Assembly (NCBI GenBank): GCA_022616555.1
Contig: JAKEEG010000075.1
Location: 1 to 64,000 of the forward strand
Direction of reading: 5' to 3'
Source of the DNA: Ignavibacteriota bacterium
GTDB lineage: Bacteria; Bacteroidota; Ignavibacteria; UBA10030
DNA length: 64,000 nucleotides
The notes beneath the pieces were generated by a model. It was not told the DNA's origin, did no database searches, and saw nothing but the letters and a program-made list of their open reading frames with translations. Of this stretch, positions 24,607 to 64,000 are shown piece by piece; the first letter of the stretch is position 1, and the number at the start of each line of letters is the position of its first letter. The translations under genes and the position numbers were made by a program.

Positions 24607-24685
24607 GGTTCGAAAGTGATATGTTAGGGAAGGATTGCCCTAAACCTACAAAATCCTTTCTGCTTAAGCAATAAGCCGAGTAAAA

Positions 24686-24746
24686 CGTCATGCTGAACTC
24701 GTTTCAGCATCTAAAAGATAGACCCCGAGACAAGTTCGGGGTGACG
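24686..24746. repeat. Dispersed repeat 'CGTCATGCTGAACTCGTTTCAGCATCT...CCCCGAGACAAGTTCGGGGTGACG'
   Basis: Nested inverted repeats (ATGCTGAA/TTCAGCAT; CCCCGA/TCGGGG; CGTCA/TGACG). Confidence 0.7.
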
Positions 24747-24796
24747 GCATATGAGAGGGCACACCCCTGCCTTAACGGGCGCGAACGGCCGGCCAA

Positions 24797-24816: not shown

Positions 24817-24932
24817 CTACGATAACCTTTTTTGGGATTCACAGGGAGAAGCAGTCTTTTGACTGGAAGCTTATCGGGTCGGTATGTTTTTTGTCTTACT
24901 ACTTAGTGCTTATTTGCTCTCTACTTTCTACA

Positions 24933-25118
24933 TCCTAACAGAAAGGCGCCGCACCGCGGCGAGAGAGGAGTTGACGACAAATAGATTCACACGGCACGCC
25001 CCGGTCGGGAACAAGCCCGCGGAGCCGACTCAGAGAGTCCAGAGCCCGTGATCCGCTTATGGCGGATTACGTGTCGTAGGCCCTTACAGAGGACTCTGAG
25101 AGGGACGCCTTGTTAGGA
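24933..25118. ncRNA. Candidate structured non-coding RNA (closing stem plus several internal hairpins)
   Basis: Closing stem TCCTAAC/GTTAGGA + AAGGCG/CGCCTT; internal CGCCGC-ACC-GCGGCG; GTCGG...CCGAC enclosing GGG-AACAAG-CCC; AGAGTCC/GGACTCT; CGTGATCCGC-TTATG-GCGGATTACG. TATAAT on the minus strand at 25123-25118. Confidence 0.5.
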
Positions 25119-25135
25119 TTATACGCTGATGATGT

Positions 25136-25206
25136 GCTGTTCTCTAGATGCTCCGGGTTCTGGCCTGCAGACCGTCGTCCGGAGGTTAACGCTCGTTTAG
25201 AACAAC
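25136..25206. other. Second structured intergenic element next to the candidate ncRNA
   Basis: TGTTCT...AGAACA outer arms, CTCCGG...CCGGAG inner arms. Confidence 0.4.
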
Positions 25207-25420
25207 AACGATATTGAATTATTATTGATATATAATGTAATGTAGCAATATGAAAAAGTCAAGAGAAAAAATTACAAATAATGTAAAATCGTATAATGCG
25301 TTGGAATGTAAAGAGTTGTGTGATATGGGATATGCGATGTGGGAGTGGAGAACCGCCCTCCACTTAGTCCCCTCCCGTTGGCAAAGCCATCCCTTCGGGA
25401 AAAGGGATGGGAGATTGCCT

Positions 25421-58916: not shown

Positions 58917-61900
58917 ATGATGAAAGCCGTATTACGTTCGCGTGTTGTTGCTGTCCTTTTGCTCTTGTCTTCAACCGCAGTTGTTGCCCAAGAATTACAT
59001 GTACGGTTTTCTTCGCTTCCCTCGTCGAGTTCTCAGCTAGCTCCGGGAGAAGTACAAACAAAACTTCAAACCGGGACTCAATTCCTCGCTCTCAACGATG
59101 AAGCAATTGCGGCTGTGCTACGGGAGCAACCCCGGCGCGTCATGCTGGAATTTCCAGCTGAAGTTTCTCTCCCCTCAACAATTGCGTTAGAACCGTTCCA
59201 AATCTTTACCCCTAACGCTAAAACAGTGGTGCGTGGCGCGCAAGGCGAGCGTGAAGTCCCGTTCCAGAGCCAATGGGTTTCGTACGCGGGGAAAATTCCG
59301 GGCAACGACAGGGCGATTGTCGTGGTGAATTTCTCACGTTCCGGTGTCAGCGCATTCTTTGATATTGGCGGAAGGAGATATATGTTGGAGTCCGAATCTG
59401 TCGCCAACGGAGCGCGTACGCATAGGTTTTTTGAAGCCGACCCGGTGCTCTTTCAGGGAAGATTGAATTGTGGTGTACAAAGTCCGGGAGACCCGGCGAT
59501 TGATGCGAGAGTGCGAGAGATCAGGGCGCGACAATTAGGCAAAGCAGAAGCCGCAGTTCAAATGAAACGTGCGGAGGCATCTCCGGCTTCTTCCGCAACG
59601 CTGTTGAGTCCGGATATGTATCTTGGTGCTGTCTCTACAGATACGATAGAAGTCCATGTTGCGCTCGAGGGGGACAACGACTTGTTCCTTACGAAAGGCG
59701 AAAACGAAGACTCAGCCATGGCCACCATGCTGGAGACTGCAGCGTACTCCTCAGCAATTTATCTGCGCGACGCTGGAGTGAAAATTATGGTGCCGTTTGT
59801 GAGAGTGTGGGAGACTTCTGATCCGTATCCACAAGATATATTTCTTGCTCTGAGCCAGTTCACGTCATACTGGAATGCAAACGAAGATAGTGTTGAGAGA
59901 ACGATTGCGCATTTATTTGTCAGCTCTGCACAGTGGTCGAGCGTCGGCGGTGTTGCAGGTATTGCGCATCTTAATACGCTCTGTAACAAGCTTGAAGGAT
60001 ATGGCGTAACCGACGTAAAAGACAGCGCGTCGGTTGACCACCTGATTACTTTCGCGCACGAAGTTGGACATAACTTCGGCGCACATCATACGCACAGTTG
60101 TTTATGGCCCGGCGGACCGTTCGAGATTTGCTCTGATGTAGAAGGTTCGTGCTATGATGGCCCGGTGAACGGTACAGAGGGGTCGATCATGAGCTATTGC
60201 TCGCAACGCGTTGCGGAGTTCGGCCCAATCGTCAGCGCGCTGCTCAGGCGCAACGCCGAAGTTGCGTGGTGCGCGCCTTCGACCGTGCAATCGCCTGTCG
60301 CAGCAGCGGATTCTACATTTCTCCAGTCGCTCTATACAGGTACCGACGGAGCTACTTGGACGCATAATACGAATTGGACCGGTGCAGTTGCCGGCCGCTA
60401 CGGCGTTGCAGTGCGCGCTGGGCGAGTCGTTGCCATCGACTTAGCGGCGAACAGTTTGGACGGCGCGTTACCAAGCGGATTGGAGAATTTAACAGAGTTA
60501 CGCCACCTGAATCTCTCAGGACGAAATCATTATCGTATCACGGAAGTCGACCCGCCGAATCCGGAAACCGACCAATCCAACATGAACCACTTGACCGGTC
60601 AATTGCCATCAGGTATCGACGCGTTGAACAAACTTGAGTATCTCAACCTTAGTAATAACCAGTTTAACGGGTCGGTTCCGTCGGGAATCGGCAATCTTAC
60701 GGAATTGCGCTGGCTGGATTTATCGGAGAACCAATTCAGCGGAACTATTCCAACTTCACTTGGCGACTTAGACAGTCTTGAACTGCTCGATTTGTCGCGC
60801 AATCCATTGACCGGGGGCATTCCTACCGAACTTGGTTCGTTGACAAATCTGCGGTTTTTAGTTTTAACTGATATGGGCGGGTTGGGTGGAAGTCTTCCCG
60901 CTTCACTCGGCTCGTTGACGAAGCTGAGAGTTCTCTTGGCTTACAAAGCAGGTCTGACGGGTTCTATTCCGGTGGAGTTGGGCAACCTCACGCAACTGAC
61001 CAATATCGACCTTAGCACGAACCAACTTACAGGCTCAATTCCTACAGAACTGGGGAACCTCGCCGCGTTGCAAAATTTATCGCTGTTGGAAAATCAACTC
61101 ACCGGAAGCATTCCCGCTTCGCTTGGACAATTGGATAAACTTGTTGGACTGGTGTTAAGCAGTAATATGCTGAGTGGCGCTATACCGGAAGAAATCGGGA
61201 ACATGAATGTTTGGAAACTCATGTTGGGGAAAAATCAGCTTACCGGAGAGATCCCGGCGTCATTCGCGAATCTTACACAGGTGGTGGAGTTAGATCTCAG
61301 CGAAAATAATTTAACGGGTACGTTGTTGGAGACATTCAAAGATATCGGCAGTGAATTCTATCCTGGACTGCCTGGGTTCCTCGAATTCACCGTTCACGAT
61401 AATCATCTTACGGGACCATTCCCGGATTGGCTTGGAACTGAATCGCACTTTAACGCGCTGAGCACGTTGAAGCTGGGCGGAAATGACTTCACCGTGACGA
61501 CAGTGCCCGAATGGATTGCCTCCAAACAATTCCTCGGGCGGTTGTGGTTGCACGACCTTGGATTTACAGGCGAGCTACCGTCTGAAATCGGCCTTCTCGC
61601 GTTTTTGTTTGAACTGAATCTTGCCGGGAATAATTTCGAGAGCATGTCGAATCTGAATAACGTATCCTTGAAGCAGCTCGGTGCGTTTACGGCAATCGAG
61701 GCTAACAAGCTCACATTTGAGGATATCGTCCCGGTGCTGGAGTTCGAATTACAGAGCTTGACGTATATCCCCCAACAACCGTTGGGTGAACCCGTAAATC
61801 TCGATGTTGAACCGGGTGGACAAGTAGTCATGACTGTCCAAGCAGGCGGGGAGGGGAATACGTATCAATGGTTCAAGGACGGCCAGGAGATTAACGGAGC

Positions 61901-62621
61901 GACTGACACGGTCTATACGATTGCTTCTATATCCGCGGCAGATTCGGGCGTTTATATCGCAGAAGTGAAGAATGCCGCAGTTCCGTTATTAACGTTGGTA
62001 AGGAATCCGTATCACATTTCCCTGTACACGGAAGGCTTCCCGCACACCGTCACCCTGTTGCTACCGGCCCCTGGCGCAACGGACTTAACAAATCCGGTTA
62101 CGTTAAGCTGGAATACGGATTCGCTTTCCGACAGCTACCATGTGAACGTCGATACGTCGCAGGCATTTAGCTCCCCGCTCCTTATCGATAGCGTATCAGT
62201 AGCCGATACGACGCTGGATTTGGCAACATTATCGAGTATCGGTCCCTATTACTGGAGGGTGAGGGGCGTCAACGGGCTGGGACAGGGTAACTGGTCGGAA
62301 ACCAGGTCATTCAGCATGTCGTCAATCGTAAGTGTAGAGGGGGTGCCGGATGTTCCGACTGAATATGCGCTCTTGCAAAATTATCCGAATCCCTTTAACC
62401 CGCGCACAAATTTTGAAGTACGTGTTGCGCAAGGCGGCATTGTCCGGTTGGTGGTCTATGATTTGCTCGGAAGAGAAATCGCAACGCTCCTTAACCAGGA
62501 GCTTCAGCCGGGCGCGTATCGCGTATCATGGGATGCAACCGGCTTGACGAGTGGAATCTATCTCTACCGAATGACGGCAGGTTCGTTTGTAGCAACAAGA
62601 AAATTATTTTTGGTGAAGTAA
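58917..62621 (+). CDS. Secreted reprolysin-like zinc metalloprotease + leucine-rich repeats + Ig-like/FN3-like region + T9SS type A C-terminal sorting domain
   Basis: 'HEVGHNFGAHHTHSC' zincin motif; 'LTGSIPTELGNLAALQNLSLLENQ' LRRs; C-terminal 'LLQNYPNPFNPRTNFEVRVAQGGIVRLVVYDLLGREIATLLNQELQPGAYRVSWDATGLTSGIYLYRMTAG'. Confidence 0.9.
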   Translation: MMKAVLRSRVVAVLLLLSSTAVVAQELHVRFSSLPSSSSQLAPGEVQTKLQTGTQFLALNDEAIAAVLREQPRRVMLEFPAEVSLPSTIALEPFQIFTPNAKTVVRGAQGEREVPFQSQWVSYAGKIPGNDRAIVVVNFSRSGVSAFFDIGGRRYMLESESVANGARTHRFFEADPVLFQGRLNCGVQSPGDPAIDARVREIRARQLGKAEAAVQMKRAEASPASSATLLSPDMYLGAVSTDTIEVHVALEGDNDLFLTKGENEDSAMATMLETAAYSSAIYLRDAGVKIMVPFVRVWETSDPYPQDIFLALSQFTSYWNANEDSVERTIAHLFVSSAQWSSVGGVAGIAHLNTLCNKLEGYGVTDVKDSASVDHLITFAHEVGHNFGAHHTHSCLWPGGPFEICSDVEGSCYDGPVNGTEGSIMSYCSQRVAEFGPIVSALLRRNAEVAWCAPSTVQSPVAAADSTFLQSLYTGTDGATWTHNTNWTGAVAGRYGVAVRAGRVVAIDLAANSLDGALPSGLENLTELRHLNLSGRNHYRITEVDPPNPETDQSNMNHLTGQLPSGIDALNKLEYLNLSNNQFNGSVPSGIGNLTELRWLDLSENQFSGTIPTSLGDLDSLELLDLSRNPLTGGIPTELGSLTNLRFLVLTDMGGLGGSLPASLGSLTKLRVLLAYKAGLTGSIPVELGNLTQLTNIDLSTNQLTGSIPTELGNLAALQNLSLLENQLTGSIPASLGQLDKLVGLVLSSNMLSGAIPEEIGNMNVWKLMLGKNQLTGEIPASFANLTQVVELDLSENNLTGTLLETFKDIGSEFYPGLPGFLEFTVHDNHLTGPFPDWLGTESHFNALSTLKLGGNDFTVTTVPEWIASKQFLGRLWLHDLGFTGELPSEIGLLAFLFELNLAGNNFESMSNLNNVSLKQLGAFTAIEANKLTFEDIVPVLEFELQSLTYIPQQPLGEPVNLDVEPGGQVVMTVQAGGEGNTYQWFKDGQEINGATDTVYTIASISAADSGVYIAEVKNAAVPLLTLVRNPYHISLYTEGFPHTVTLLLPAPGATDLTNPVTLSWNTDSLSDSYHVNVDTSQAFSSPLLIDSVSVADTTLDLATLSSIGPYYWRVRGVNGLGQGNWSETRSFSMSSIVSVEGVPDVPTEYALLQNYPNPFNPRTNFEVRVAQGGIVRLVVYDLLGREIATLLNQELQPGAYRVSWDATGLTSGIYLYRMTAGSFVATRKLFLVK

Positions 62622-62639
62622 CGACCCTCCAAACGGATA

Positions 62640-62690
62640 GCGTGAAAACACAAAGCCCCCGAATTCGGGGGCTTTGTGTTTTCACGCTAT
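62640..62690. terminator. Terminator-like GC-rich hairpin at the inverted-repeat axis
   Basis: AACACAAAGCCCCC-GAATTC-GGGGGCTTTGTGTT right after the T9SS protein stop. Confidence 0.75.
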
Positions 62691-62705
62691 CCGTTTGGAG
62701 GGTCG

Positions 62706-64000
62706 TTACTTCACCAAAAATAATTTTCTTGTTGCTACAAACGAACCTGCCGTCATTCGGTAGAGATAGATTCCACTCGTCAAGCCGGTTGCATCCCATG
62801 ATACGCGATACGCGCCCGGCTGAAGCTCCTGGTTAAGGAGCGTTGCGATTTCTCTTCCGAGCAAATCATAGACCACCAACCGGACAATGCCGCCTTGCGC
62901 AACACGTACTTCAAAATTTGTGCGCGGGTTAAAGGGATTCGGATAATTTTGCAAGAGCGCATATTCAGTCGGAACATCCGGCACCCCCTCTACACTTACG
63001 ATTGACGACATGCTGAATGACCTGGTTTCCGACCAGTTACCCTGTCCCAGCCCGTTGACGCCCCTCACCCTCCAGTAATAGGGACCGATACTCGATAATG
63101 TTGCCAAATCCAGCGTCGTATCGGCTACTGATACGCTATCGATAAGGAGCGGGGAGCTAAATGCCTGCGACGTATCGACGTTCACATGGTAGCTGTCGGA
63201 AAGCGAATCCGTATTCCAGCTTAACGTAACCGGATTTGTTAAGTCCGTTGCGCCAGGGGCCGGTAGCAACAGGGTGACGGTGTGCGGGAAGCCTTCCGTG
63301 TACAGGGAAATGTGATACGGATTCCTTACCAACGTTAATAACGGAACTGCGGCATTCTTCACTTCTGCGATATAAACGCCCGAATCTGCCGCGGATATAG
63401 AAGCAATCGTATAGACCGTGTCAGTCGCTCCGTTAATCTCCTGGCCGTCCTTGAACCATTGATACGTATTCCCCTCCCCGCCTGCTTGGACAGTCATGAC
63501 TACTTGTCCACCCGGTTCAACATCGAGATTTACGGGTTCACCCAACGGTTGTTGGGGGATATACGTCAAGCTCTGTAATTCGAACTCCAGCACCGGGACG
63601 ATATCCTCAAATGTGAGCTTGTTAGCCTCGATTGCCGTAAACGCACCGAGCTGCTTCAAGGATACGTTATTCAGATTCGACATGCTCTCGAAATTATTCC
63701 CGGCAAGATTCAGTTCAAACAAAAACGCGAGAAGGCCGATTTCAGACGGTAGCTCGCCTGTAAATCCAAGGTCGTGCAACCACAACCGCCCGAGGAATTG
63801 TTTGGAGGCAATCCATTCGGGCACTGTCGTCACGGTGAAGTCATTTCCGCCCAGCTTCAACGTGCTCAGCGCGTTAAAGTGCGATTCAGTTCCAAGCCAA
63901 TCCGGGAATGGTCCCGTAAGATGATTATCGTGAACGGTGAATTCGAGGAACCCAGGCAGTCCAGGATAGAATTCACTGCCGATATCTTTGAATGTCTCCA
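62706..64000 (-). CDS. Mirror copy of the C-terminal part of the LRR metalloprotease (truncated at window end)
   Basis: 384-aa ORF identical to the C-terminus of the 58917-62621 product; stop near 62706. Confidence 0.9.
   Translation of the reverse strand, partial: ETFKDIGSEFYPGLPGFLEFTVHDNHLTGPFPDWLGTESHFNALSTLKLGGNDFTVTTVPEWIASKQFLGRLWLHDLGFTGELPSEIGLLAFLFELNLAGNNFESMSNLNNVSLKQLGAFTAIEANKLTFEDIVPVLEFELQSLTYIPQQPLGEPVNLDVEPGGQVVMTVQAGGEGNTYQWFKDGQEINGATDTVYTIASISAADSGVYIAEVKNAAVPLLTLVRNPYHISLYTEGFPHTVTLLLPAPGATDLTNPVTLSWNTDSLSDSYHVNVDTSQAFSSPLLIDSVSVADTTLDLATLSSIGPYYWRVRGVNGLGQGNWSETRSFSMSSIVSVEGVPDVPTEYALLQNYPNPFNPRTNFEVRVAQGGIVRLVVYDLLGREIATLLNQELQPGAYRVSWDATGLTSGIYLYRMTAGSFVATRKLFLVK

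Follow-up and report, generated by a model that had tools for sequence, protein, structure and literature searches.

An intergenic region of the window, by which we mean the whole 64,000-nucleotide stretch of Ignavibacteriota DNA analysed here, carries one member of what is, judging from its sequence, an uncatalogued family of folded RNAs that has spread in one lineage. The explanation that we favor, and that we hold to be probable by a modest measure, is that of a family of mobile, non-autonomous ncRNA genes that carry their own promoters. The gene in the window would run on the minus strand from 25262 to 24932 and some 50-170 nt beyond, as one of at least 21 loci. Each locus comprises its own vegetative-type promoter, a leader that is free to vary, a closing stem (P1/P2), the multibranched core enclosed by this stem, and a tail rich in purines. 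A preliminary description of this DNA had proposed an unassigned structured RNA at this position, a proposal that is borne out by covariation among paralogues and by searches of Rfam in which no match was obtained; the multicopy, inserted and lineage-specific nature of the element is an addition to it.

Copies of the element and their distribution

BLAST searches of the genome from which the window derives (2.99 Mb, 99 contigs) established that the region is repeated, with type A copies that are 73-84% identical. The genes of this genome, among them BshA and genes with Por_Secre_tail domains, suggest that it belongs to the Bacteroidota group. Covariance models recover at least 19 recognisable copies, 11 of type A, 7 of type B and one of type C, the mean identity of the cores being 0.756 for type A and 0.852 for type B, and types D and E, which have the same scaffold and another interior, bring the total to at least 21 loci. 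Both of these last types were found through their flanks, D on contig C42 (101-nt interior, z -6.0) and E on contig C30 near 38.5-38.6 kb (115-nt interior). They keep the promoter, leader, closing stem and tail around an interior that is different and shorter; the closing stems of type E are re-paired using other bases, and A, D and E all retain a hairpin loop that is rich in U and has a run resembling ATCTATTT. That D and E share the scaffold around other interiors points to a closing scaffold that is constant and an interior that is changeable.

A partial copy was matched at the start of contig C30 and is probably the remainder of one severed by the end of another contig. An apparent extra, identical copy at C31:100197-100407 was rejected because it belongs to the mirrored half of a contig that is palindromic, the matches on C31 being positioned symmetrically about the contig middle. 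The end of the window, 61327-64000, consists of 2674 bases that equal their own reverse complement, with a center near 62663 at a terminator-like hairpin, and contig C31 (125,326 nt) appears mirrored about the window position near 62663; this 2674-nt perfect inverted palindrome is very probably an assembly artefact.

Some 600 related genomes were searched altogether. No match was obtained with model R1 among 97 further genomes from the order, with model R2 in 295 genomes of the class, or with model R3, either in 39 relatives, for each of which as many as 64 candidates were scored, or in 395 genomes of the phylum, where the candidates per genome were few and weak relatives may be missed. A pattern for hairpin P7 (see below) gave matches no higher in number than a reversed-pattern control in other genomes of the phylum, the corresponding figures in its own genome being 21 and 0. 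Phages and plasmids returned nothing by blastn; matches of a loop pattern in IMG/VR (L088, L089) were set aside as chance, the rest of the RNA being absent, and 12 viral matches of a second pattern in IMG/VR all failed the model. Neither the window nor any of types A-E matched a family in Rfam 15 at the gathering threshold, and at relaxed E nothing relevant was listed up to E 5 for type A and the intergenic region or up to E 1 for types B and D. We also found no described multicopy RNA in the literature that matches the family, which appears limited to a single lineage.

Fold and strand of the core

The complementary segments from which a structured RNA had been proposed are all in place, and the region is more stably folded than dinucleotide shuffles, with energies of -78.6 kcal/mol (z -3.4) on the plus strand and -82.1 kcal/mol (z -3.0) on the minus strand. 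Stable folding of both strands says nothing, however, about which of them is the RNA. In an alignment of the 11 type A sequences made without a structure model 92.3% of the cells pair; its percentage of pairing, its count of double changes and its covariation score were each reached by none of 500 shuffles. A second alignment, of 18 sequences, was fitted to the structure and is therefore biased toward the fold; in it 24 pairs have changed at both positions, there are 95 double-change cells as compared with 29 in shuffles, 90.5% of the cells are paired and the covariation score is again above that of all 500 shuffles, with all of the covariation arising among paralogues in one genome and not among independent species. 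When partners are slid by 1-3 columns as a control, pairing falls to 32-48%.

In order to read the strand, use can be made of the cells that are not Watson-Crick paired, of which 96 are G-U and 26 are A-C on the minus strand in an alignment equivalent to that of the 18 sequences. Because G-U far exceeds A-C there, and the counts would swap on the other strand, the RNA is placed on the minus strand, and a plus-strand reading on which the early models A1 and R1 had been built was dropped after this count. The strand, which had been left undecided, is settled by this asymmetry together with a conserved minus-strand promoter at 25262-25234.

The type A core extends over 24932-25119 of the minus strand, with a fold that is conserved in 18 copies. 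It is closed by P1, formed by TCCTAACA (25111-25118) and TGTTAGGA (24933-24940) and 93-95% paired, and by P2, where GGCGTC (25104-25109) and GGCGCC (24945-24950) are 100% paired with U-A/U-G and C-G/U-A changes. Inside, P3 joins CTCAGAGTCC (25091-25100) to GGACTCTCTGAG (25029-25040, including a 2-nt bulge) and has four pairs changed on both sides when A, B and C are taken together, while P4, AGGGCC (25079-25084) with GGCTCT (25041-25046), is 100% paired and retains one G-U fixed throughout type A. Two variable hairpins follow, P5 (CGTAATCCGC...GCGGATCACG, 25047-25071) with compensatory changes in 9 of 10 pairs and P6 (24998-25025) with such changes in 6 of 10 pairs and 76% pairing. Hairpin P7 (24951-24997; arms 24997-24990 and 24958-24951) has a conserved loop, GAATCTATTTGTCGTCAAC, is 100% paired in type A and contains invariant G-U pairs that exist on the minus strand only. 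What the copies share on this strand is P1 as TCCTAAC/GTTAGGA, P2 as GGCGTC/GACGCC, P3, P4, the hairpins P5 and P6, and P7 as GTGCCGAG/CTCGGTGC with a long loop. A pseudoknot between ACGACA (25072-25077) and TGTCGT (24979-24974), also on the minus strand, is possible on the basis of sequence; its arms are complementary yet invariant in all of type A and are only partly kept in B.

Among the stems suggested earlier, the closing stem, AGAGTCC/GGACTCT and the 10-bp CGTGATCCGC stem are kept in the paralogues. The hairpin CGCCGC-ACC-GCGGCG and the GTCGG...CCGAC pairing are not, their arms forming part of P7 and P6 in the consensus with other partners. In copies L036, L038 and L040, long additional hairpins and inserted stretches such as TTCGACAAGCTCAGG are placed at the tips of hairpins or where P1 and P2 meet, and they spare the conserved parts of the RNA.

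Promoter, leader and tail

Upstream of the core in the window lie, on the minus strand, a -35 hexamer TTGACT (25257-25262) and a -10 hexamer TACATT (25234-25239) separated by a 17-nt spacer, in agreement with the pattern TTGAC[A/T/G]-N16-18-TAnnnT that is found upstream of nearly all copies; one copy has TTTACA as a -35 variant. With the spacer held strictly at 17 nt the promoter is present at 15 of the 21 loci; shuffles average 0.1, and on the plus side 1 of 16 copies has such a promoter. Two promoter-like sequences noted previously do not fare as well. The TATAAT hexamer that adjoins the core (25123-25118, minus strand) is not shared by the other copies, and the plus-strand TTTTTTG/TATTTG arrangement, which falls opposite the purine-rich tail on the complementary strand, does not qualify as a conserved promoter.

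The leader, from the predicted start to the core, occupies 25120-25227 of the minus strand. It is divergent among copies, often with a hairpin, and separates the core from the promoter by about 57-224 nt. Over its last 60 nt the identity between type A copies is 0.585, versus 0.577 for shuffled sequences. The pattern is that of a promoter and a core conserved separately with what looks like random sequence between them. Since promoter and core flank the leader, all three most simply came together, so that the conservation of the two outer parts would reflect later constraint, and a promoter and fold that are kept while the leader has drifted argue for a transcribed RNA under selection. We infer that the unit is transcribed and that the RNA is the selected product. 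Palindromes of 8 or more nt occur in 12 leaders, as compared with 7.2 (sd 1.9) in shuffles, and loop palindromes in 4, as compared with 1.2 (sd 1.1); dimerisation through kissing loops of the leader is a weak idea that these counts suggest.

Downstream of the core the copies have, in order, a purine-rich tail, an AACATAYCG-like motif and GTGTGY. The tail in the window (24880-24931, minus strand) ends in AACATACCG and is similar in kind in most copies, and GTGTGY, which recurs about 100-200 nt past the core in most of them, is represented by GTGTGCC (24758-24764, minus strand). Our guess is that the 3′ limit of the unit lies at this last motif. The size of about 186 nt given previously fits the core, whereas the conserved unit is about 350-450 nt, which is probably also the length of the transcript.

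Other repeated sequences are found around the unit. In the window and at L048, L050-L052, L153 and L155, the interval that separates the RNA promoter from the gene upstream of it holds low-complexity tracts like CCCACATCCCATATCTCACATC, and a TTGTCGAAGGTCTC...GAGACAA hairpin lies in the same interval at L026, L048, L052 and L153. A dispersed repeat, CATGCTGAACTCGTTTCAGCATCT...GACCCCGAGACAAGTTCGGGGTGACG, occupies 24685-24747 of the window, with pieces also near the RNA copies L019, L022 and L027, and is apparently an unrelated intergenic repeat family. Another dispersed palindromic repeat, GATATCAGCCT...AGGCTGATATC, occurs downstream of some RNA copies and elsewhere (L045 1201-1375, C42, C1, C71, C21 and C6).

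Insertion, alternative explanations and known systems

Two gene pairs were compared with those of relatives. The ABC permease-bshA spacer is 964 bp here versus about 78-93 bp in five relatives, one further relative having about 440 bp of other sequence, and the hemN-TMEM260-like spacer is 960 bp versus about 75-165 bp in 12 relatives. Gain by insertion is shown directly at these two loci, in 17 comparisons by spacer length with relatives from other genera; the short spacers establish that the unit was gained in this lineage and do not tell the mechanism of gain. In this lineage the units entered gene borders, past the stop codon of the preceding gene and ahead of the promoter of the gene that follows, and most of them are oriented along the direction of transcription. 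As the promoter travels with the unit, movement would have been at the level of DNA, for plain RNA retroposition would lose the promoter, and the machinery would be encoded elsewhere.

The main rival, unlikely in our estimation and nevertheless with a real chance of being correct, is a dispersed palindromic repeat at the DNA level (MITE or bcr1-like), in which the fold would be of use to the DNA or to the element's ends and any RNA would be a by-product. Dispersed copies, lineage specificity and insertion at the two sites tested all agree with it, as does a terminal inverted repeat, ATCCTAAC/GTTAGGAT, which bounds the core, although the conserved unit extends past it on both sides because promoter and tail lie outside. 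It does not account well for G-U far above A-C on one strand, for a promoter kept in nearly every copy at a variable distance from the core, or for a leader that decays when core and promoter do not. Nor was a target-site duplication visible next to the cores, a result that holds for the core edges and may not apply to the true ends of the inserted unit. Sharp common ends were likewise not found among the copies.

We consider it distinctly unlikely that the unit is a portable cis-acting leader, an inserted promoter and structured 5′ UTR that drives and regulates the downstream gene. The RNA strand does run in the same direction as its neighbors at most loci, with the core about 100-490 nt ahead of the downstream gene start, but at a few loci the first gene downstream lies antisense to the RNA, the genes that neighbor the copies are unrelated (thyA, bshA, peptidases, others) with no function common to the downstream genes at the loci examined, and the downstream gene retains its own promoter-like sequence at both of the gene pairs compared. 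Membership in a known class, as a divergent IscB omega-RNA (HEARO), group I/II intron remnant, 6S RNA or integron attC, is very doubtful. The stand-alone dispersed copies are reminiscent of HEARO, and TCCTAAC/GTTAGGA might be likened to attC ends; against this are set the Rfam results described above, the presence of a single copy and no tandem array in each of the regions examined (about 4-8 kb), and the absence of a transposon gene beside the copies examined. An RNA on the plus strand, which also folds well, is scarcely credible given that the wobble asymmetry and the promoter are both on the minus strand.

For the mobile ncRNA gene family that we favor, the RNA would act in trans via its fold, which would offer proteins a scaffold to bind or give element-specific machinery a signal to recognise. 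A bolder form, advanced tentatively and in our judgment less probable than not to be correct in full, is a SINE-like bacterial element, in which a promoter-bearing ncRNA gene is multiplied as a mobile unit, its fold is selected in each copy and its interior is swapped as a module in a constant scaffold. Structured bacterial RNAs are usually detected by cross-species conservation, an approach that this family escapes because it is apparently confined to one lineage; its roughly 21 paralogues form a comparative set of their own. Dispersed repeats are commonly treated as DNA debris, and the persistence here of promoter and fold when the sequence between them decays argues for a selected RNA and makes the spread and maintenance of a noncoding RNA gene directly testable.

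Stand-alone HEARO, or IscB omega-RNAs, occur as many dispersed structured copies without an adjacent protein gene. The present family resembles them in this regard and differs in that there is no Rfam HEARO match and that each core is preceded by its own promoter and leader. With the large ornate RNAs GOLLD, ROOL and OLE (PMC12286853) it has in common only a multibranched, as yet unexplained noncoding RNA; unlike them it is present in about 21 paralogues in one genome with a core of only about 190 nt, no Rfam relation was found, and the palindromic leader loops hint weakly at dimers. The bcr1 repeat of the Bacillus cereus group is said to have mobile-element characteristics in the title of a work cited in PMC2267715 (its reference 24), and like it and similar stem-loop repeats (PMC2267715) the present units are short, structured, intergenic and dispersed in one lineage. 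Unlike bcr1, they have a conserved promoter apart from the core, RNA covariation on one strand and an exchangeable interior in a shared scaffold. By analogy, their behavior is like that of a bcr1-type dispersed structured repeat combined with an independent ncRNA gene.
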